A stretch of 38,274 nt of DNA from Bacteroidales bacterium. Lineage in GTDB: Bacteria > Bacteroidota > Bacteroidia > Bacteroidales > GWF2-38-335. Below the pieces are notes generated by a model, which saw only the letters and a program-made list of their open reading frames with translations, did not search any database and was not told the DNA's origin. This document shows, in pieces, positions 10,298 through 31,558 of this stretch; the stretch's first letter is position 1, and every line of letters starts with the position of its first letter. The position numbers and the translations under genes were made by a program. Location of the stretch: the NCBI GenBank assembly GCA_016936815.1, contig JAFGXD010000072.1, positions 1 through 38,274 of the forward strand, given 5' to 3'.

Positions 10298-10324
10298 AAA
10301 CCGCCTGATGGGCGGTTTTTTTTT
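10298..10324 (+). terminator. Intrinsic terminator of the 9918 gene
   Basis: AAACCGCC (10298-10305) and GGCGGTTT (10311-10318) form an 8-bp stem with a TGATG loop followed by a run of T residues to 10324. Confidence 0.9.
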
Positions 10325-10342
10325 GCCCATTTTTTTAATGGC

Positions 10343-10370
10343 AAAAAAAAAGGCTGCCAAATGGCAGCCT
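10343..10370 (-). terminator. Intrinsic terminator of the 10391 gene (minus strand)
   Basis: AGGCTGCC (10351-10358) and GGCAGCCT (10363-10370) pair around an AAAT loop. Read on the minus strand the stem is followed by a run of T residues (the A tract at 10343-10350). It lies back to back with the plus-strand terminator at 10298-10324. Confidence 0.88.
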
Positions 10371-10390
10371 TTCTAAGAATTTCATTAATG

Positions 10391-12204: not shown

Positions 12205-13908
12205 TTATTTTCCTGATATTTTTGCCCAGGAATCTTTTAGCCCAACCGTGCGATTAAAAACAATATTATCAGGCTTAGAGTCTTTATCTACACAAAAATA
12301 GCCAATTCTTTCGAACTGAAACTGTTGCCCTGCTTCAGCATTAATTAGGAATGACTCTACTTTTGCTCTAATTATTTTTAGGGATTCGGGATTTAGGTTT
12401 TCGGTAAAATCGTGTCCTTCCACAACATCATCAGGTTCTTCTGAAAGAAACAATCTGTCGTAGAGTCTTACTTCAGCATCCAAATTGTTTTTTGCATCAA
12501 CCCAATGAATAGTTCCTTTTACCTTTCGTCCGTCTGGAGAAACCCCACCTTTAGAAGCCGGATCGTAAGTACAATGAATTTCTATTATCTCCCCATTTTC
12601 ATCTTTTACTACATTTGTACATGTAATAAAGTAAGCGTATCTTAATCTAACCTCTGTTCCGGGACTTAATCTAAAGAATTTTTTTGGTGCATCTTCCATA
12701 AAATCATCTCTTTCAATGAAAAGCTCTTTCGAAAAGGAGACCTTTCTGGTTCCCATGCTTTCATCCTCAGGATTATTAACTGCTTCAAGATACTCTTTTG
12801 AATCATCTGAATAATTTGTAATAATTACCTTTAAAGGGTTTATAACTCCCATTACCCTAGCAGCCTTCTTGTTAAGATCTTCTCTAACAGAGAATTCCAA
12901 AAGTGAAACATCAATAAGATTATCTCTTTTTGCAATACCAATACGTTCGGCAAAATTTCTAATAGACTCCGGAGTATAACCACGACGTCTGTATCCGCTA
13001 ATTGTGGGCATACGAGGATCGTCCCAGCCTGTAACAAAACCTTCCTGTACCAGTCGAAGCAATTTTCTTTTACTCATAACTGTGTAAGAAAGATTTAGTC
13101 TTGCAAATTCAATCTGTCTGGGACGGTAAGCTCCCGGTTCAACAAATTGGTCTAAAAACCAATCGTATAGAGGTCTGTGAACTTCAAATTCCAAAGTACA
13201 TATTGAATGTGTAATTCCTTCATAATAATCTGATTGACCGTGAGCAAAGTCGTACATTGGATAAATACACCACTTATCGCCGGTTCTATGATGAGTAGCT
13301 TTTTTTATGCGATAAAGAATAGGATCGCGCATGTGCATATTTGGGGAAGCAAGATCAATTTTTGCTCTCAGCATATATTTTCCCTCTTCAAATTCTCCAT
13401 TTTTCATTCCTTCGAAAAGCCTTAAATTTTCCTCAACCGGTCTTTCCCTCCAAGGACTTGGCTTTCCGGCCTGAGTAGGAGTGCCCTTGTATTCGGCCAT
13501 TTGTTCAGGTGATTGTTCACATACATAAGCCTTTCCCTTTTTAATAAGCAAAACAGCAAATTCATAAAGTTTATCGAAATAATCGGAAGCATATTTTGGT
13601 TCGCTTTCCCATTCAAAACCCAACCATTTTACGTCCTCCATAATAGAATCAACATATTCGGTATCTTCCTTAACAGGATTGGTATCATCGAAACGCAAAT
13701 TTGTTTTTCCACCATATTTAATTCCTAAACCAAAATTCAAACAAATAGACTTAGCATGACCAATATGCAGATATCCATTGGGTTCCGGAGGGAAGCGGGT
13801 TAATATTCTTCCGCCGTTTTTACCATTTTTAATTTCTTCCTCTATAATTTGCTCAATAAAATTCAAAGATTTCTTTTCTACTGAATTTTCTTCTGCATTA
13901 ATGGTCAT
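12205..13908 (-). CDS. glnS: Glutaminyl-tRNA synthetase
   Basis: This class I synthetase charges tRNA-Gln with glutamine. The 567 residues carry the class I signatures: [14 protein letters not shown], with HIGH at 48-51, and the KMSKS-equivalent MSKRK at 278-282. The GlnS-specific [14 protein letters not shown] region follows, then the two beta-barrel anticodon-binding domains (from about 350). [14 protein letters not shown] and [11 protein letters not shown] in the last 80 residues are typical of GlnS and argue against GltX. Length agrees with the family (E. coli 554). A direct Gln-charging route is therefore encoded. The gene stands alone with a -7 box upstream (13942-13949). Confidence 0.97.
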
Positions 13909-13941
13909 AATTTGTCTTTTTTATAATATGAATTTAAAGTG

Positions 13942-13949
13942 CAAAAATA
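13942..13949 (-). promoter_or_regulatory. -7 box for glnS
   Basis: TATTTTTG on the minus strand (13949-13942) matches TAnnTTTG exactly, 33 bases before the glnS ATG. I see no clear -33 element. Confidence 0.5.
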
Positions 13950-14000
13950 ATCCGATTTTACCAGAATAGTAAGGAAAAACGAAAAATTATTGGCAATAAT

Positions 14001-14008
14001 GATTTTTG
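14001..14008 (+). promoter_or_regulatory. -7-like box for the candidate RNA
   Basis: GATTTTTG matches TAnnTTTG at 7 of 8 positions (G for the first T). Its expected transcription start falls at about 14014-14016, exactly the 5' edge of the closing stem of the RNA. Confidence 0.4.
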
Positions 14009-14013
14009 GAAGA

Positions 14014-14155
14014 AACCCGGGGATGAAGAAAGCTTTGTGGGATACATTGAACTGAGGACTTGTAGGAAGGTGTATCTACAATAAGAGAAGAAGGTGTATC
14101 CAAAAATTAAGCAACCAAAATCTGGCTTTCTGTCTGGTTCCCCGGGTTGTTTTTT
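14014..14155 (+). ncRNA. Candidate structured small RNA, about 140 nt
   Basis: Nested complementary segments give a long closed structure. The closing stem P1 is 10 bp, perfect and GC-rich (AACCCGGGGA 14014-14023 with TCCCCGGGTT 14139-14148). P2 is 7 bp (AGAAAGC 14027-14033 with GCTTTCT 14125-14131). P3 is 7 bp (GGATACA 14040-14046 with TGTATCC 14095-14101). P4 is 6 bp (TTGTAG 14060-14065 with CTACAA 14076-14081), capped by a 10-base loop. A large asymmetric internal loop lies between P2 and P3, A-rich on its 3' side (14102-14124). A T tract (14150-14155) right after P1 gives the plus strand a terminator-like end; the minus strand lacks one. A -7-like box precedes it at the right distance. 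A stem, open bubble and apical hairpin in a stand-alone locus recall 6S RNA, but I cannot confirm that identity. A transposon-derived inverted repeat is the alternative; I see no target duplication or transposase. Confidence 0.5.
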
Positions 14156-14373
14156 GCATATTAATAATGATAATTATTACGAGTTAAAACTATTATTAAA
14201 TTTTTAATAATGACTACTTTATTGTAAATTATTTTGAATTTTTATACAAAATGTGCTTTTTTATATATCTACCTAAGTATCTATTAGTAAGTAAAATGAT
14301 GGAGGCTTAATAGGTATTATTACGTATATTATTTAACAGTATTACTTATATTTCATTCATTAACACTAATAAA

Positions 14374-15297
14374 TTAAAAAAGTTTAGCTCTCTTAATTAA
14401 GTAAGCCATTAAGACTTTTGAAAAATCCATATTTATGTCGGCTTCAATAATATCAATTTGGTTTTGTAAACATCTAAGTTTAATTTCTTCTTTGTAGTCT
14501 TTATATTGTTTTCTAAATAGTTCCTGAATTTCATTAGGATTGAGTTTAAGCTCTGTTCCTGTTTCCATATCAATAAACTTATAAGGTCTATGAGCATATT
14601 CGAAATTTTCTTCAAGCTTATGATCGGTAACATGAAAAAGAATTACCTCATGTTTTCTGTATTTTAAATGCTGAAGTGCTGAAAAGAGATTATCTTTATC
14701 GCCACTATCGAACATATCTGAAAATACTACTACCAAAGACCTTTTGTGAATCTTCTCAGCTATTTCATGAAGAGCTTGTGCGGCATTTGTTTGCTTTTTT
14801 AGGTCGTCAGCTCCCGGGGTAAGTAGTTTTTCTAACTCGGCAAACAAAAGTTGTGCATGAATATTGGATAATTTTGAAAGGGAATAGAAATCAATTTTAT
14901 CTGAAAAAAGTGACATTCCAACAGCATCTCTTTGTTTCCTAAGCAGGAAAATTAATGCCGCAGCAGTATATACAGAGAAATATAGTTTATTAAAAACATT
15001 ATTTTCTTTGTAAGGAAAGAGCATAGAGCCCGAATGGTCTATAACAAGGTGGCAGCGCAAATTTGTTTCTTCCTCGAAACGCTTAACGTAGAGTTTGTCG
15101 GTTCGGGCAAAAAGTTTCCAGTCAATAAACTTTGTTGATTCTCCTTTGTTGTAAGTTCGGTGTTCGGCAAATTCAACAGAAAAGCCATGAAAAGGACTTC
15201 GATGCAGGCCTGTAATAAAACCCTCAACGACTTGTCTGGCAATAAATTCAAGATTTTGAAATTGCTGAATTGCTTGTATGTCGTTTAGGTTTTTCAA
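14374..15297 (-). CDS. DUF58 domain protein (MoxR-associated type)
   Basis: The 307 residues contain the DUF58 signature: RSPFHGFSVEFAEHRTYNKG followed by TKFIDWKLFARTDKLYVKRF (about 33-74). A von Willebrand A-like fold with the metal-site motif DHSGS (D87, S89, S91) and SLVVVFSDMFDSGD comes after. Such proteins are usually encoded beside MoxR AAA ATPases and membrane VWA (BatA/BatB) proteins and are linked to envelope stress or assembly of periplasmic enzymes. No MoxR or Bat gene lies in this window, which is unusual; the gene is instead downstream of trxA, separated by a hairpin. There is no signal peptide or membrane segment, so it is cytoplasmic. The start at 15297 gives the usual N-terminal helix. 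Confidence 0.88.
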   Translation of the reverse strand: MKNLNDIQAIQQFQNLEFIARQVVEGFITGLHRSPFHGFSVEFAEHRTYNKGESTKFIDWKLFARTDKLYVKRFEEETNLRCHLVIDHSGSMLFPYKENNVFNKLYFSVYTAAALIFLLRKQRDAVGMSLFSDKIDFYSLSKLSNIHAQLLFAELEKLLTPGADDLKKQTNAAQALHEIAEKIHKRSLVVVFSDMFDSGDKDNLFSALQHLKYRKHEVILFHVTDHKLEENFEYAHRPYKFIDMETGTELKLNPNEIQELFRKQYKDYKEEIKLRCLQNQIDIIEADINMDFSKVLMAYLIKRAKLF

Positions 15298-24973: not shown

Positions 24974-27900
24974 ATGAAACTTAAAATAATGAGATTAAGG
25001 GGTATAATTCTGCTAATAGCATTTTTGTTTATTGGCTCGTTAAGTTTCGGACAGCAATTGTCTGAAGCCGAATATGAGCTAGAGCAAGATGCAATAGAGT
25101 TTTTTAAGGCAAAAAAGTATGAAGAAGCTTTGCCTTTGTTTTCATCATTAATTTCTGTTCATCCACAGGAAGGCTTTTATAATTATTGCTATGGAATTTG
25201 CCTTGTAGAAGTTAATAAAGACATACCCAAAGCTATTGAATATCTGAAATTTGCCTCTGGAAAAGATGTGAAGTATTTTGTATATTTCTATCTTGGAAAA
25301 GCCAATCACCTTCTCTACAAATTCGATGAAGCTATTAGGCATTATAATACATTTCTGCAAAAAGGCGGAACAAAAGATGCTGCCGAATATCCCGCTGCCA
25401 GATACATAGAAATGTGTAAGAATGGAAAAGATTTGGTTCAGTTTATAAGCAATTTAATGGTTATTGAAAACAAGACATTACGTAGTCAAGACTTTTTCTA
25501 TTCATATAATTTAGGCGATTTTGGAGGAAAAATCATTATAAAACCAAAAGAATTTAAGACAAAGCTAGACATTAAGAAAGAAGAAAAAGGAATAATGTTT
25601 ATGACTGATTCCAATTATGTTTTTTACTCAAGTTATGGTAAAAATGGTAAAAATGGCAAAGATATATACAGATCAAAGAAACAAGTAAACGGTTTGTTTG
25701 GAGAGCCCGAATGGCTTGGTAATGTTATAAATACGAGTTTCGACGAAGATTATCCTTTTTTGCACCCCGATGGAAAAACCTTGTACTTTTGCTCAAAAGG
25801 ACATAATTCGATGGGTGGCTACGACATTTTTAGGTCGGTTTACGATTCTGTTGGTTCTAAATGGTCTAAACCCGAAAATCTCGATTTTCCGACAAACTCC
25901 CCATACGACGATCTTCTTTTTATAAGCGACGCAGGAGAAGATTATGCCTATTTTGCTTCTGCCAGAGAAACAGGCTCCGATGAGGTTTCAATCTACAAAA
26001 TTAGAATAGATAAAAACCCTGTTAGAAGGGAATTACGTGAATACGAAGAAATTATTAATCTTTCTAAGCTTAATCCTAATGCTTTGGCTGATAATAACAA
26101 CAATAATAATTCGCTTGGAAATTTAAATGAAACCAATTCTAACAAAGCAAACTCCAACAGAAAAGAAATTAAATTCGATAAAATTGCATTCGACCCAAAT
26201 CTTAGCTTTAACGAAATTGTAAAAGAAAGCGACAAGGATGTTGAAGTGGTTCAGGAACAATACAATAAGCTTAACAAACAATCGAAAGTTGCTTATCTGG
26301 CAGCAAACGATAAAAATAAGGAAGCAAACAGAAAATGGCAGGAAGCAATAAGTATTTACGAGGTGGTGAATGAAATTACTAACGAAGAGGAAAAAGAGGC
26401 TGAACTTAATAAAGCAATAAAACTTGAAGAAGAGGCAGATATTCTTTCTAAAGAAGCCGTTGTGGCTTTTAATCTTGGCTCTAACCTGGAAAAAAATGCC
26501 AAGGAAAAAGAAGAGGAATTAAAGAGTTTGGTTGAATTAAGGAATTCATTAACAGAAGGTTCAGATATTGAGGAAATGGTTAATACCATTAACAAATCCC
26601 GTGAAAATCTTAATCTAGCCGAAGAAAAATATACCTCTGTTGAAAATGAACTTGAAAAAAGAAAATCTTCAACTGCAGATAAAAAAGATGAACTGGATGT
26701 TGTAACAGAAGAGCGAATTCACAATGAAAAGGTTGTTAAAAGTATTGAAAATGATATTAGTCTTATAAACAATCAACTAAAAACCGAAAAAAATCAGGAA
26801 TCAATTAAGGATTTAAATTCGCAACTTGCCGATTTGGAAAAAGAAAAACTAGAAACTATTGAAAAAAGAAACAACATAGCTGCTCAGGAAGAAAAATTGA
26901 AAGTGGAAGTTAGGGAAATGAATAACGAGATTGCATATTTGGAAGATTTGGCTCAGCAAGCTTCTGATTCAGAAAACAGTAATAATATAGACGAGAAGCT
27001 TTCAGAAGTAAATAAAGCAAATCTTGATAAGGAAATCTTTGATAAAGAACTTGCAGCCGATTTAAACAAAGCCAAAGAAGTAGCCGATAATATTTCTGCA
27101 AATAATAATGATGAAAATAATTCAGCCAATAATAATACTGCTGAAAATAACAATGGAAATACTTCCAATAATAATACAACAAACGATAATAATGGAGGAA
27201 GCAATTCAGACAATAATACCAATAATACAGAGGAAAATAATAACAATGAAAATTCGAACAATTCTAGCGAAAACAATAATTCAAATGTTGTTAGCGTAGA
27301 TAAAAATACCGAAGAGGTAGTAGATACCTATAAGAACCCGGTTGCTCAAAACCTTTTCCGCGAAGCACGTCAAAATAAAATGCTTTCCGATTCGCTAAAA
27401 TTTCAAGCCGATACAAAAAGAAAGATTTTAGAAACAGTTGATGATGAGGGAAAAAGACGAATTATTGAGAACGAAATAATTCAACTGGAAGCCAAAGCTA
27501 ACGAAGAACATCAAAAAGGAAATATAACTGAGGCTAAGAGACTTAATAATGAGGCGAATGAAAAGAGAAATTTGCTTGTTACCGTAAAAAATATTGAAGA
27601 AAGAAACAAGATAGAAAGAGAAATAAATGAACTTGAAGAGCTTGCGGCAATTAAGAAACAGCAGGCTGTTAGCAAATTTACCGAAGCACAGGTTGAAGAA
27701 AATAATTATGTGGCATCAAACGACGGTAACAACAATAATTCAGACTATAACAATAATGTTACAAATAATAACAATTCAAGCAATAATTCGACAAACAATA
27801 CAAAAGACCCTTTGCTTGCCGAAATAGAAAAAATTGATGAAAACCCAAAGTTTCCCTTCTCCGAATCGGAAGAAGATAGCGACTTAGATAAATATCAAAA

Positions 27901-30900
27901 AGAATTATTTAAAGCAAATTACTACGTAAATCTTACCAAAACTGTTGAATCTCGTTTAGAACAGATGAAAGGCAGTGTAGATACTATTTCCGATTCAAAA
28001 ACTCAGGATCATTATAAAAATGAAATAGTTCGTCTGGAAAATATTTTGGAGAAAAGTAAGGCAAAAGCTGAGGAATCAACAGAAAAAGTCGAGAAACTTA
28101 AACCTTTAGTAATTGACCAATTAGACGGTTCGGAATTTACAAATGAGGAATTGTTGGTAAGAGCAACTTCATATCAGCCAACACTAAAGCTAAACTACTC
28201 TGCAGATCAGCAAAATGAAATAATACTTATTAATGAAGACAGAAACTTTGCTTCACAAAATCAAAAAGAGTATTCTGCTGCTCAAAAAAATCTTGCAGCC
28301 TTAAATGAAAAGCTAGAAAAATCTGATGATCAGAAGGAAAGGAAGTCGTTACAAAAAGAAATAGATGGGGAAAACAAGAAATTTGAGGAAAATTTCAACT
28401 CCTACAACAAATTGTCGGAACAGTCTAATCTAGCAGAATATAACCTATTTAAAAATGTTGCAGAAGATGTTAGATTGGTAAATAGCGATAAAGACATAGT
28501 TCTTGCAAATAATCTGGAAAAAGAAGCCGGCTTATATTTCGAAAAGGCAAAAAATATTAGAGCCAATGCAAATTTAGTATCAGATAATCAAGAAAAAGCT
28601 GCACAAATTCATAAGGCAGACTTAATGGAGCAGGTGGCAATTAATAAGCTAAAGCATGCAACAGACCTGTATTTACTGGGAACACAAAATACGGTAGTTG
28701 AAAATAATAATTCAAATTCTTCAAATAACGTTTCAATAACTTTAAGTCCTGAAGAAGAAGAAACCCTAGCCAAAACAAGAAAAGATAAGCAGGAAGCTGA
28801 AATTTTGGTTCAGGAGGCAGAAAAAACACTTGAAGAAATTGAGATAAAAAAGCAGAAAGCCGATGCAATTTATTCAGAAAAAGAAAAAAAGAAAATTCTT
28901 AAGGGCACCGAGGAAAAGGAAAATGTTGCCAAACAAAGACTTATGGCTGCATATCTTCGCTACAAATCCGCCGACAGTATTCAATACAATTTAAACAAAA
29001 ATCAGATAATTCAGATTAGTAAAAGCCTTGATGATGTAGGAACAAACAAAGCAAAGGCAAAGCAATATACAAAAGAAGCAGACTTTTATTTCGGAAATGC
29101 CCAGAAACGATGGGATGAAGGTAACACAGAGAAAAACATAGACGAAAAATTAAAACTTATGAAATCTGCTGTTGCCATGGAAAATCAGTCCTTGGAAAGT
29201 CAGGTTTTTGCTCTTGATTTGCTTATTAACTCCGAAAACACAATTTTTGTGGCTTCCAATAGTCTTACAAAAATCGACCTTAGCTCAATGAATACCCCCG
29301 TTAATGTTGATGATGTTATTAAATTAGGTACTCAAAGAATAATAAAGAACATTGCTCTGCAACCCGATGAATACAAGGCAATGGACAAAACCACCGAAAT
29401 TGAAGATGTTGCTCTTAATTTAAGAATGGATGTGGATGATATTAAGAAGCAAATAAAGGAATTGGAGGAAGTTATTGCTACATCGAGTAACAATAAAGAC
29501 AAAAAGAAAGCCGAAAAAGAGATTGAAAAATTGGAACAGAAAATGTTTGCCTCACAGTTTACTGAGGTAGAACTTTACGGAAACATAAACAATACAAGAT
29601 TTTACGTATATCAGGATAATATAAAGGCTTACAGAATAAAAGGAACATCAGAAGAAGCAAGACAGGGACGACAACTCGAAAGCGATGCAAAAAACAAGTT
29701 CAACAAAGCTCAATCTCTTAGAGAAAAGGCCTTTATGGAACAAAATCCCAACAAAGCCTATGAGAGAGGAAGAGAAGCAATGAATTTGGAAAAAGAAGCA
29801 ATAATAGATTTGGAAAAAGCTTATAGCATTTACTTAGGTCTGGAACCACTTGATGAGGAAATTGCTGAATTTCAAGCTAATAAAATAAAATCTCAACAAG
29901 AAAATTCCTTAATGGTAAAATCTTTGGCCGATATTACTCCAATAAATATCGATACAATGAACTTCAATAGAAATAAAAACAATAACGATATTAATAATCT
30001 GGCAGATAATAATAATCAAATTGATACAACAAGCAATAATAACAATAGTAATGACATAGCTCTAAACAACAACACAGAAACTTCTGATACAACTGATGTT
30101 TCATCGAATAACAATTTGGCGGATAATACTAATAACAATACTAATAACGATAATAATAACAACAGCAATACCGACAATAACAATTCCGGCAACGACAACA
30201 ACACTAACAACAACACTAACGAAAACAATAACAACGAAAACATCAACGACAACAATAATTCCAACACTAACAACAACAATACTGAAAATAGCGATTTAGC
30301 CTCAAATAATAATTCGGGAAATACTGATTCTAACAATTCAAGCTTAATTATTGATAAGAATATTGAAGGCACAAATATTGTAATTCCGGCACAAGCAATT
30401 TTTAAATTTACAATGAATGCGGGAAAATCCTACTCAGCAGAAAACCCAATTCCAATGAATGAAGAACTACCTGCCGGAATAGTTTTCAAAATACAAATCG
30501 GGGCATTTAAAACAACTATTCCCGACAATACTTTTACTGGTTTAAATCCGGTTAGCGCCGATAAACTTCCAAATTCATCATATATTAAATATTTGGTTGG
30601 TCTTTTTCAGACTTACGAAGCGGCAGGAGTGGCACTAACAGATGTAAGAAATAAAGGATACAGAGATGCGTTTATTGTTGCTTACAAAGATGGAAAAAGA
30701 ATTTCACTTTTTGAAGCCAGAAACCTTATTAATAAAGAGAGTCCGGATGTTAAGCAATATTACGATGCTGTTGCGCAAAAGGAAACAGAAATGGTAAATT
30801 CTAAAGCAAGCGGCGACATAGCTTCAAATAATAATAACAATTCTACAAACGAAAATAGAAATACAAATACCGTTTCAACAGTTATTCCGGTTAAAGCAGG

Positions 30901-31558
30901 AAATCTAACGGAAGTTCAGGGATTGCTTTACACAGTTCAGATTGGTGTTTATAAAACTCCTGTTTCAAAATCGGCTCTTTTCAACCTCGACCCAATTTAT
31001 CAGGAAACAACCGGCGCGGGTTTAATTCGATACACAACCGGAATTTTCAATACTGTTGATGATGCCGTTAAAGAAAAAGATAAAATTGTAAACATTGGAA
31101 TACGAGATGCCTTTGTTACAGCATATTACAATGGAAAAAGAATTAGCATTAGTGAAGCATCAAGGGTTTTGGGATCAGGAACTGCTGAATTTGCCGAATC
31201 GAGAAATACAAATTCAGAAACAATACCTGTAAACACAAATAATAATGCAGATAGCCAAAACAATGCAAGTTCTACAGCAAATAAGATTGAATTTAAAGTA
31301 CAAATAGGTGCATACAAAGAGCAGGTTCCAACCAATGTTGTAAAATCTTTACTTTCGGTGGCTGCGCAAAGAGGTCTCGACCAACAATTAGATGAAAAGG
31401 GCTTTACTGTTTACACCGTTGGCAACTATACTTCTTATCAGGAAGCAAAAACTACCAAGGAAGCAGTTGCAGCAGAAGGAATTACCGATGCTTTTGTGGT
31501 AGCTTTTAACAATGGAAAAAAGATTTCGGTTGAGGAAGCTCTTCGTCTTCAGCAATAA
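24974..31558 (+). CDS. Giant envelope protein: TPR, PD40-type propeller, coiled coils, Asn-rich linkers, three SPOR-like repeats
   Basis: The product has 2194 residues, with a signal peptide ending near SLSFGQQ (about 27; M6 is an alternative start). TPR-like repeats (about 33-145) follow, then a PD40/WD40-like propeller (about 185-345; HPDGKTLYFCSKG, GGYDIF), the N-terminal layout of PorE-like OmpA-family proteins. Next come long Glu/Lys-rich coiled coils, interrupted by Asn-rich linkers at about 372-393, 709-776, 915-944, 1663-1793, 1952-1966 and 2076-2103. At the C terminus, where OmpA-family relatives carry a peptidoglycan-binding domain, there are three SPOR-like repeats (about 1836-1916, 1985-2063, 2105-2194; cores VFKIQIGAFK, YTVQIGVYK, EFKVQIGAYK, each ending with DAF and NGK or DGK). 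SPOR domains bind denuded glycan strands, so anchoring to peptidoglycan is likely. A cell-envelope scaffold role, perhaps tied to T9SS or division, is inference. Confidence 0.88.
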   Translation: MKLKIMRLRGIILLIAFLFIGSLSFGQQLSEAEYELEQDAIEFFKAKKYEEALPLFSSLISVHPQEGFYNYCYGICLVEVNKDIPKAIEYLKFASGKDVKYFVYFYLGKANHLLYKFDEAIRHYNTFLQKGGTKDAAEYPAARYIEMCKNGKDLVQFISNLMVIENKTLRSQDFFYSYNLGDFGGKIIIKPKEFKTKLDIKKEEKGIMFMTDSNYVFYSSYGKNGKNGKDIYRSKKQVNGLFGEPEWLGNVINTSFDEDYPFLHPDGKTLYFCSKGHNSMGGYDIFRSVYDSVGSKWSKPENLDFPTNSPYDDLLFISDAGEDYAYFASARETGSDEVSIYKIRIDKNPVRRELREYEEIINLSKLNPNALADNNNNNNSLGNLNETNSNKANSNRKEIKFDKIAFDPNLSFNEIVKESDKDVEVVQEQYNKLNKQSKVAYLAANDKNKEANRKWQEAISIYEVVNEITNEEEKEAELNKAIKLEEEADILSKEAVVAFNLGSNLEKNAKEKEEELKSLVELRNSLTEGSDIEEMVNTINKSRENLNLAEEKYTSVENELEKRKSSTADKKDELDVVTEERIHNEKVVKSIENDISLINNQLKTEKNQESIKDLNSQLADLEKEKLETIEKRNNIAAQEEKLKVEVREMNNEIAYLEDLAQQASDSENSNNIDEKLSEVNKANLDKEIFDKELAADLNKAKEVADNISANNNDENNSANNNTAENNNGNTSNNNTTNDNNGGSNSDNNTNNTEENNNNENSNNSSENNNSNVVSVDKNTEEVVDTYKNPVAQNLFREARQNKMLSDSLKFQADTKRKILETVDDEGKRRIIENEIIQLEAKANEEHQKGNITEAKRLNNEANEKRNLLVTVKNIEERNKIEREINELEELAAIKKQQAVSKFTEAQVEENNYVASNDGNNNNSDYNNNVTNNNNSSNNSTNNTKDPLLAEIEKIDENPKFPFSESEEDSDLDKYQKELFKANYYVNLTKTVESRLEQMKGSVDTISDSKTQDHYKNEIVRLENILEKSKAKAEESTEKVEKLKPLVIDQLDGSEFTNEELLVRATSYQPTLKLNYSADQQNEIILINEDRNFASQNQKEYSAAQKNLAALNEKLEKSDDQKERKSLQKEIDGENKKFEENFNSYNKLSEQSNLAEYNLFKNVAEDVRLVNSDKDIVLANNLEKEAGLYFEKAKNIRANANLVSDNQEKAAQIHKADLMEQVAINKLKHATDLYLLGTQNTVVENNNSNSSNNVSITLSPEEEETLAKTRKDKQEAEILVQEAEKTLEEIEIKKQKADAIYSEKEKKKILKGTEEKENVAKQRLMAAYLRYKSADSIQYNLNKNQIIQISKSLDDVGTNKAKAKQYTKEADFYFGNAQKRWDEGNTEKNIDEKLKLMKSAVAMENQSLESQVFALDLLINSENTIFVASNSLTKIDLSSMNTPVNVDDVIKLGTQRIIKNIALQPDEYKAMDKTTEIEDVALNLRMDVDDIKKQIKELEEVIATSSNNKDKKKAEKEIEKLEQKMFASQFTEVELYGNINNTRFYVYQDNIKAYRIKGTSEEARQGRQLESDAKNKFNKAQSLREKAFMEQNPNKAYERGREAMNLEKEAIIDLEKAYSIYLGLEPLDEEIAEFQANKIKSQQENSLMVKSLADITPINIDTMNFNRNKNNNDINNLADNNNQIDTTSNNNNSNDIALNNNTETSDTTDVSSNNNLADNTNNNTNNDNNNNSNTDNNNSGNDNNTNNNTNENNNNENINDNNNSNTNNNNTENSDLASNNNSGNTDSNNSSLIIDKNIEGTNIVIPAQAIFKFTMNAGKSYSAENPIPMNEELPAGIVFKIQIGAFKTTIPDNTFTGLNPVSADKLPNSSYIKYLVGLFQTYEAAGVALTDVRNKGYRDAFIVAYKDGKRISLFEARNLINKESPDVKQYYDAVAQKETEMVNSKASGDIASNNNNNSTNENRNTNTVSTVIPVKAGNLTEVQGLLYTVQIGVYKTPVSKSALFNLDPIYQETTGAGLIRYTTGIFNTVDDAVKEKDKIVNIGIRDAFVTAYYNGKRISISEASRVLGSGTAEFAESRNTNSETIPVNTNNNADSQNNASSTANKIEFKVQIGAYKEQVPTNVVKSLLSVAAQRGLDQQLDEKGFTVYTVGNYTSYQEAKTTKEAVAAEGITDAFVVAFNNGKKISVEEALRLQQ
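26088..26160 (+). repeat. Asn-codon (AAY) low-complexity tract 1
   Basis: The first Asn-rich linker of the giant protein, starting with six consecutive Asn codons after LAD and continuing with mixed Asn, Ser and Glu. AAT and AAC alternate. Confidence 0.8.
27098..27300 (+). repeat. Asn-codon (AAY) low-complexity tract 2
   Basis: About 65 residues dominated by Asn with Ser, Glu, Thr and Gly, encoded by AAT/AAC triplets. It separates two coiled-coil blocks. Confidence 0.85.
27718..27805 (+). repeat. Asn-codon (AAY) low-complexity tract 3
   Basis: About 29 residues with runs of two to three Asn separated by Ser, Tyr, Val and Thr, between coiled-coil blocks. Confidence 0.8.
29960..30350 (+). repeat. 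Asn-codon (AAY) low-complexity tract 4, the longest
   Basis: About 130 residues composed largely of Asn with Ser, Thr, Asp and Glu, placed just before the first SPOR-like repeat. The repetitive AAY triplets also create long spurious open frames on the other strand and in the other plus frames. Confidence 0.88.

Follow-up and report, generated by a model that had tools for sequence, protein, structure and literature searches.

In the phylum Bacteroidota it is common to find lineage-restricted small RNAs (sRNAs) that carry a terminator, and in B. thetaiotaomicron 27 of the 49 high-confidence intergenic sRNAs are strain-specific (PMC7366714). GibS, a trans-acting sRNA of 145 nt from Bacteroides, is intergenic, ends in an intrinsic terminator and carries a single-stranded conserved 5' seed, and it is itself conserved in Bacteroides (PMC7366714). 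The 6S RNAs of the Bacteroidota (RF01685, 6S-Flavo; B. thetaiotaomicron 6S, PMC7366714) share a stand-alone outline in which an end-to-end, GC-rich closing stem with a T tract encloses an internal loop and apical hairpins. Here we analyzed an intergenic element that is similar to GibS in its length, its intergenic position and its putative terminal terminator, and to 6S RNA in its outline. However, its 5' end is locked in a stem and it has no homologue, unlike GibS, and it differs from 6S RNA in length (about 142 nt versus 199 nt for the 6S RNA of this genome), in locus, in the lack of any common sequence signature and in the lack of conservation. We see about an even chance that the element is a species-restricted intergenic small RNA gene whose closing stem is also its terminator.

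The element lies within the gap 13909-14373 of the window, by which we mean the whole analyzed stretch of 38,274 nt. The gap is flanked by glnS (start 13908) and a DUF58 gene (stop 14374), both on the minus strand. The features of the locus are as follows:

12205-13908, minus strand: glnS, glutaminyl-tRNA synthetase
13942-13949, minus strand: TATTTTTG, perfect -7 box (consensus from PMC7366714), putative glnS promoter that separates the element from the glnS start
14001-14008, plus strand: GATTTTTG, -7-like box with one mismatch to the Bacteroidota TAnnTTTG, of a kind found at chance frequency
14014-14148, plus strand: structured element, from the first to the last base of the closing stem
14014-14023, plus strand: 5' arm of the closing helix H1 (AACCCGGGGA), partner 14139-14148, pair probabilities 0.79-1.0
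14027-14034, plus strand: 5' arm of helix H2, partner 14124-14131, pair probabilities 0.83-0.97
14040-14048, plus strand: GGATACATT, whose partner is repeat copy 2 (14093-14101, probability about 0.41) or copy 1 (14069-14076, probability about 0.59)
14060-14081, plus strand: hairpin H4 (14060-14066/14075-14081), probability about 0.4
14066-14081, plus strand: direct repeat copy 1, GAAGGTGTATCTACAA; one of two folds places it in the loop and 3' arm of helix H4
14090-14105, plus strand: direct repeat copy 2, GAAGGTGTATCCAAAA, 24 bases downstream of copy 1
14124-14131, plus strand: 3' arm of helix H2
14139-14148, plus strand: 3' arm of the closing helix H1 (TCCCCGGGTT)
14150-14155, plus strand: T tract (GTTTTTTG), one base (G) past the closing helix, a terminator-like end
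14374-15297, minus strand: DUF58 protein gene, its 3' end facing the element

A sequence-only reading of this DNA had described four nested complementary segments, a GC-rich closing stem within AT-rich DNA and a T tract past that stem on the plus strand, and all of these are present. Including G-U pairs the helices comprise 10, 8, 9 and 7 bp (10, 7, 7 and 6 bp without the terminal G-U pairs): H1 (14014-14023/14139-14148) consists of 10 bp, seven of them G-C, H2 (14027-14034/14124-14131) of 7 bp plus one G-U pair, the third helix (14040-14048/14093-14101) of 7 bp plus two G-U pairs and H4 (14060-14066/14075-14081) of 6 bp plus one G-U pair. Directly 3' of the closing stem follows GTTTTTT, with TTTTTT at 14150-14155. 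At 42%, the G+C content of the element exceeds that of its flanks (23% and 18%) and of the other gaps of the window (about 25%), as one would expect of a structured RNA encoded in AT-rich DNA, and this counts for an sRNA. The plus strand folds better than the minus strand (-43.2 versus -38.9, with four G-U pairs versus one) and has the longer T tract; past the stem on the minus strand the sequence reads TTTCTT. The pairing of the third helix and of H4 is uncertain, as GGATACATT pairs with either of the two GAAGGTGTATC repeats (at 14066 and 14090; about 0.59 versus 0.41).

Folding energy alone marks the element as only moderately unusual: its z-score is -2.17, equally good folds arise in five of 200 shuffles of the region, and with G+C corrected for it ranks tenth among 1,526 folding windows. 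Stronger evidence comes from the closing stem. No other stem with 10 bp, seven G-C pairs and a span below 200 occurs in the window, none of 500 shuffles of the element produced such a closing stem, and a stem plus T tract of the same class is found once in the window versus 0.017 times per dinucleotide-shuffled window (both strands). Scans for stems followed by a T tract covered the window and the loci fetched from related genomes. In 382 kb of these related loci, a search for stems of 7 bp or more, including six G-C pairs and spanning 70-230, with a T tract behind them gave 13 matches, of which 10 are closing stems of 6S RNA (6S loci are over-represented, having been fetched as such; some of the loci are matched on both strands, and one genome is included twice). 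In this 6S-enriched comparison the candidate is the only match outside 6S RNA whose stem reaches 10 bp. Folding is strongest in the window at 10300-10376, where a pair of neighbouring strong hairpins (AAACCGCC..GGGCGGTTT and AAAGGCTGCC..GGCAGCCTTT) lies between two genes; they are apparently ordinary terminators, one per direction.

The -7-like box that had been noted upstream of the stem, GATTTTTG, is indeed present at 14001-14008, but it provides no promoter evidence because boxes with one mismatch to the Bacteroidota consensus TAnnTTTG (PMC7366714) occur at chance frequency, with 933 in the window versus 948 expected from shuffled sequence. No TTTG was found near -33 of the element. On the minus strand a perfect -7 box at 13949-13942 is located between the element and glnS, and similar boxes (GCAAAAATA and GCAAAAGTA) are seen again upstream of glnS in several relatives, so that the element probably lies outside the glnS leader; transcripts from this putative glnS promoter would not include it. 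Across families a TATTTTTGCA-like box stands a short distance ahead of glnS, and this recurring box is probably the glnS promoter.

Next, we searched for relatives of the element. No Rfam family matches it; the matches to sR1, CRISPR-DR26 and mir-7386 in the region are far under the cut-off and were attributed to chance. With blastn no homologue was found in 40 relatives. A structure model built from the element alone (R1) detected no homologue in 198 genomes of the order, in 395 genomes drawn from the class, in 395 from the phylum and, with laxer filters, in ten close genomes (these sets overlap in part). Weak R1 matches (in G280, G059, G123 and others) have a broken closing stem or lack most of the core, and their E-values are as expected for the number of genomes. 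G053 gave eleven weak matches, several of which fall in a dispersed hairpin repeat of its own that is unrelated to the candidate, a MITE-like sequence that reaches about 200 bases, has ends resembling ATTATTCATACG and is present on several contigs (L064-L071). As a control we used R2, an equal-length model built by the same procedure from the single 6S sequence of the same genome, on the same 198 genomes. It found its target in 81 of them, including the congener, and the negative R1 result thus has power. In the congener, the one other genome available for comparison within genus and family, glnS is 80% and the DUF58 gene 78% identical and both genes have other neighbours. It contains no such element and does not share the glnS-DUF58 junction. 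Homologues with compensatory changes were likewise not found in these searches, and as far as this can be tested the idea of a conserved RNA family with covarying pairs falls away. A scan of the genome collection for the double repeat GAAGGTGTATC(N8-25)GAAGGTGTATCC returned five contigs of unrelated bacteria.

The genome's own 6S RNA is on another contig (G000:C139, about 14785-14983; L036, 1471-1669) between zapA (PF05164) and rny, the gene of RNase Y (PF12072). Here RF01685 gives a full-length weak match at G000:C139:14815-14949 (28.7 bits versus a cut-off of 85), and RF00013 matches nowhere in the genome. In 81 of the 198 genomes the home-made model R2 matches once and only once, with E = 3e-14 in the congener. 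Among 30 fetched loci rny is a neighbour in all 30 and a recognisable zapA in 21. The alignment of the 30 sequences (A3) shows both-sided changes in 27 of 37 consensus pairs, although it was fitted to the model and its counts lean towards it. The RNA on this contig is the 6S RNA of the order. That the candidate is itself 6S RNA or a second 6S-like copy binding RNA polymerase is scarcely credible: its outline does match, with an end-to-end closing stem that would serve as terminator, an internal loop and a terminal hairpin, but the 6S RNA proper resides elsewhere in a zapA-6S-rny context kept in relatives. Covariance models RF00013 and RF01685 gave no match in 13800-14400, either at the gathering level or at E<=10, and R2 gave none in the window. 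Three motifs that are near-invariant in the 30 relatives (ACUCAAC, CAGGCC and the GGRGUUU strand) are absent from 14010-14158. The reading as a 6S orthologue is already refuted by these Rfam, own-model, synteny and signature comparisons, and the likeness noted earlier is one of outline.

The element could be inserted or decayed mobile DNA, either a single MITE-like copy or the end fragment of an insertion sequence, in which case the arms would be terminal inverted repeats and the stem at the RNA level incidental. Like MITEs it is about 140 bp long, intergenic and bounded by inverted repeats (19-nt arms, 79% complementary), and a TTTTTG at both 14003-14008 and 14151-14156 is readable as a possible target duplication, even if this sequence is rich in T, low in complexity and in one copy coincides with the T tract. 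The step in G+C is sharp at both edges, and as the congener does not share the glnS-DUF58 junction, the candidate might represent a recent insertion instead of a gene. On the other hand, many dispersed copies, which had been named as the sign of a MITE, were not observed: the element is present in a single copy in a genome that is 95% complete, and the arm motif AACCCGGGGA(N3-9)AGAAAGC occurs genome-wide only in its two arms. Pfam detects no transposase in the window, no related transposase was found, and phages, plasmids and viral contigs yielded only short chance matches. In viral contigs with GAAGGTGTATCTACAAT, similarity mostly ends at the 17-18-mer and their number is near chance expectation. 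We consider mobile DNA unlikely, but a serious contender.

It is rather less likely that the element is a terminator or 3'-end structure of the DUF58 unit on the minus strand that is large by accident, or a roadblock for both strands before glnS. The DUF58 gene and glnS are co-oriented, so a DUF58 transcript should end before the glnS promoter, and on the minus strand the same outer helices can form (-38.9) with TTTCTT past the stem. However, the T tract of this strand is weaker, no minus-strand terminator is called at the element, and the apparently ordinary terminators of the window (10300-10376) close loops of a few bases versus 115 bases here. Decidedly improbable as well is pure coincidence, that is, GC-rich arms whose complementarity within an intergenic gap, next to a T-rich flank of the ordinary sort, is accidental; it would fit the five of 200 region shuffles that fold equally well and the lack of conservation, but not the closing stem seen in none of 500 shuffles or the 0.017 stem-plus-T-tract occurrences per shuffled window. 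We also regarded coding and regulatory roles. Degenerate coding sequence was rejected: one minus-strand frame is open for 57 codons without a Pfam or plasmid match, and no reading frame of the element resembles a Pfam family. A leader peptide (ATG at 14023, MKKALWDTLN) was dismissed because the next plus-strand gene starts only at 24974, and for the same reason attenuation of a downstream gene is unlikely. An attC site was excluded by eye, as the ends carry no GTTRRRY or RYYYAAC boxes. In the 2194-aa reading frame at 24974-31558, Pfam recognizes nothing but one PD40 beta-propeller repeat.

By its anatomy the element is best read as a stand-alone structured RNA with its own terminator, and the earlier proposal survives in its weakest form only, as a species-restricted candidate sRNA stripped of 6S homology and of a conserved family. 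This reading is favoured by the excess of the stem with its T tract, the better folding of the plus strand, the longer T tract on that strand and the absence of a Pfam-like frame. Several points speak against it: there is no homologue in the genomes searched, the -7 box is at chance level, TTTG is missing near -33, the z-score of -2.17 is modest and the congener does not share the gene junction. Regarded as an intergenic sRNA, the element has a stem and T tract at its 3' end, but the stem is a long-range closing stem and not a strong local hairpin. According to this model transcription of the plus strand would run from about 14014 to about 14155, and the 10-bp GC-rich outer stem would pair the transcript ends and, together with the T tract, also act as an intrinsic terminator. 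Pairing of GGATACATT with either GAAGGTGTATC repeat would give the core two folds with one repeat copy free in each, and we infer that the free repeat would meet a target, which could be a protein or a base-paired mRNA. Two short direct repeats in a structured region before a terminator also recall the RNA repeats of type III antitoxins, but here there are two partial repeats only and no plus-strand gene for the next 10 kb. A new and very narrowly distributed class of stand-alone RNA, combining a 6S-like end-to-end architecture with an unrelated core and a two-state switch of one strand and two repeats, appears very unlikely to us.

Because lineage-restricted sRNAs are common in the phylum, the candidate is of low interest barring a transcript. 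If transcribed, it would be one more species-specific sRNA in a phylum where such RNAs are already common, here from a poorly studied Bacteroidales-like lineage. The by-product of our analysis is of more use than the candidate: a simple home-made model picks up the 6S RNA of the order once per genome, whereas the Rfam cut-offs miss this family. As 6S RNA in the Bacteroidota is already known as a kind, this points to a gap in the models.
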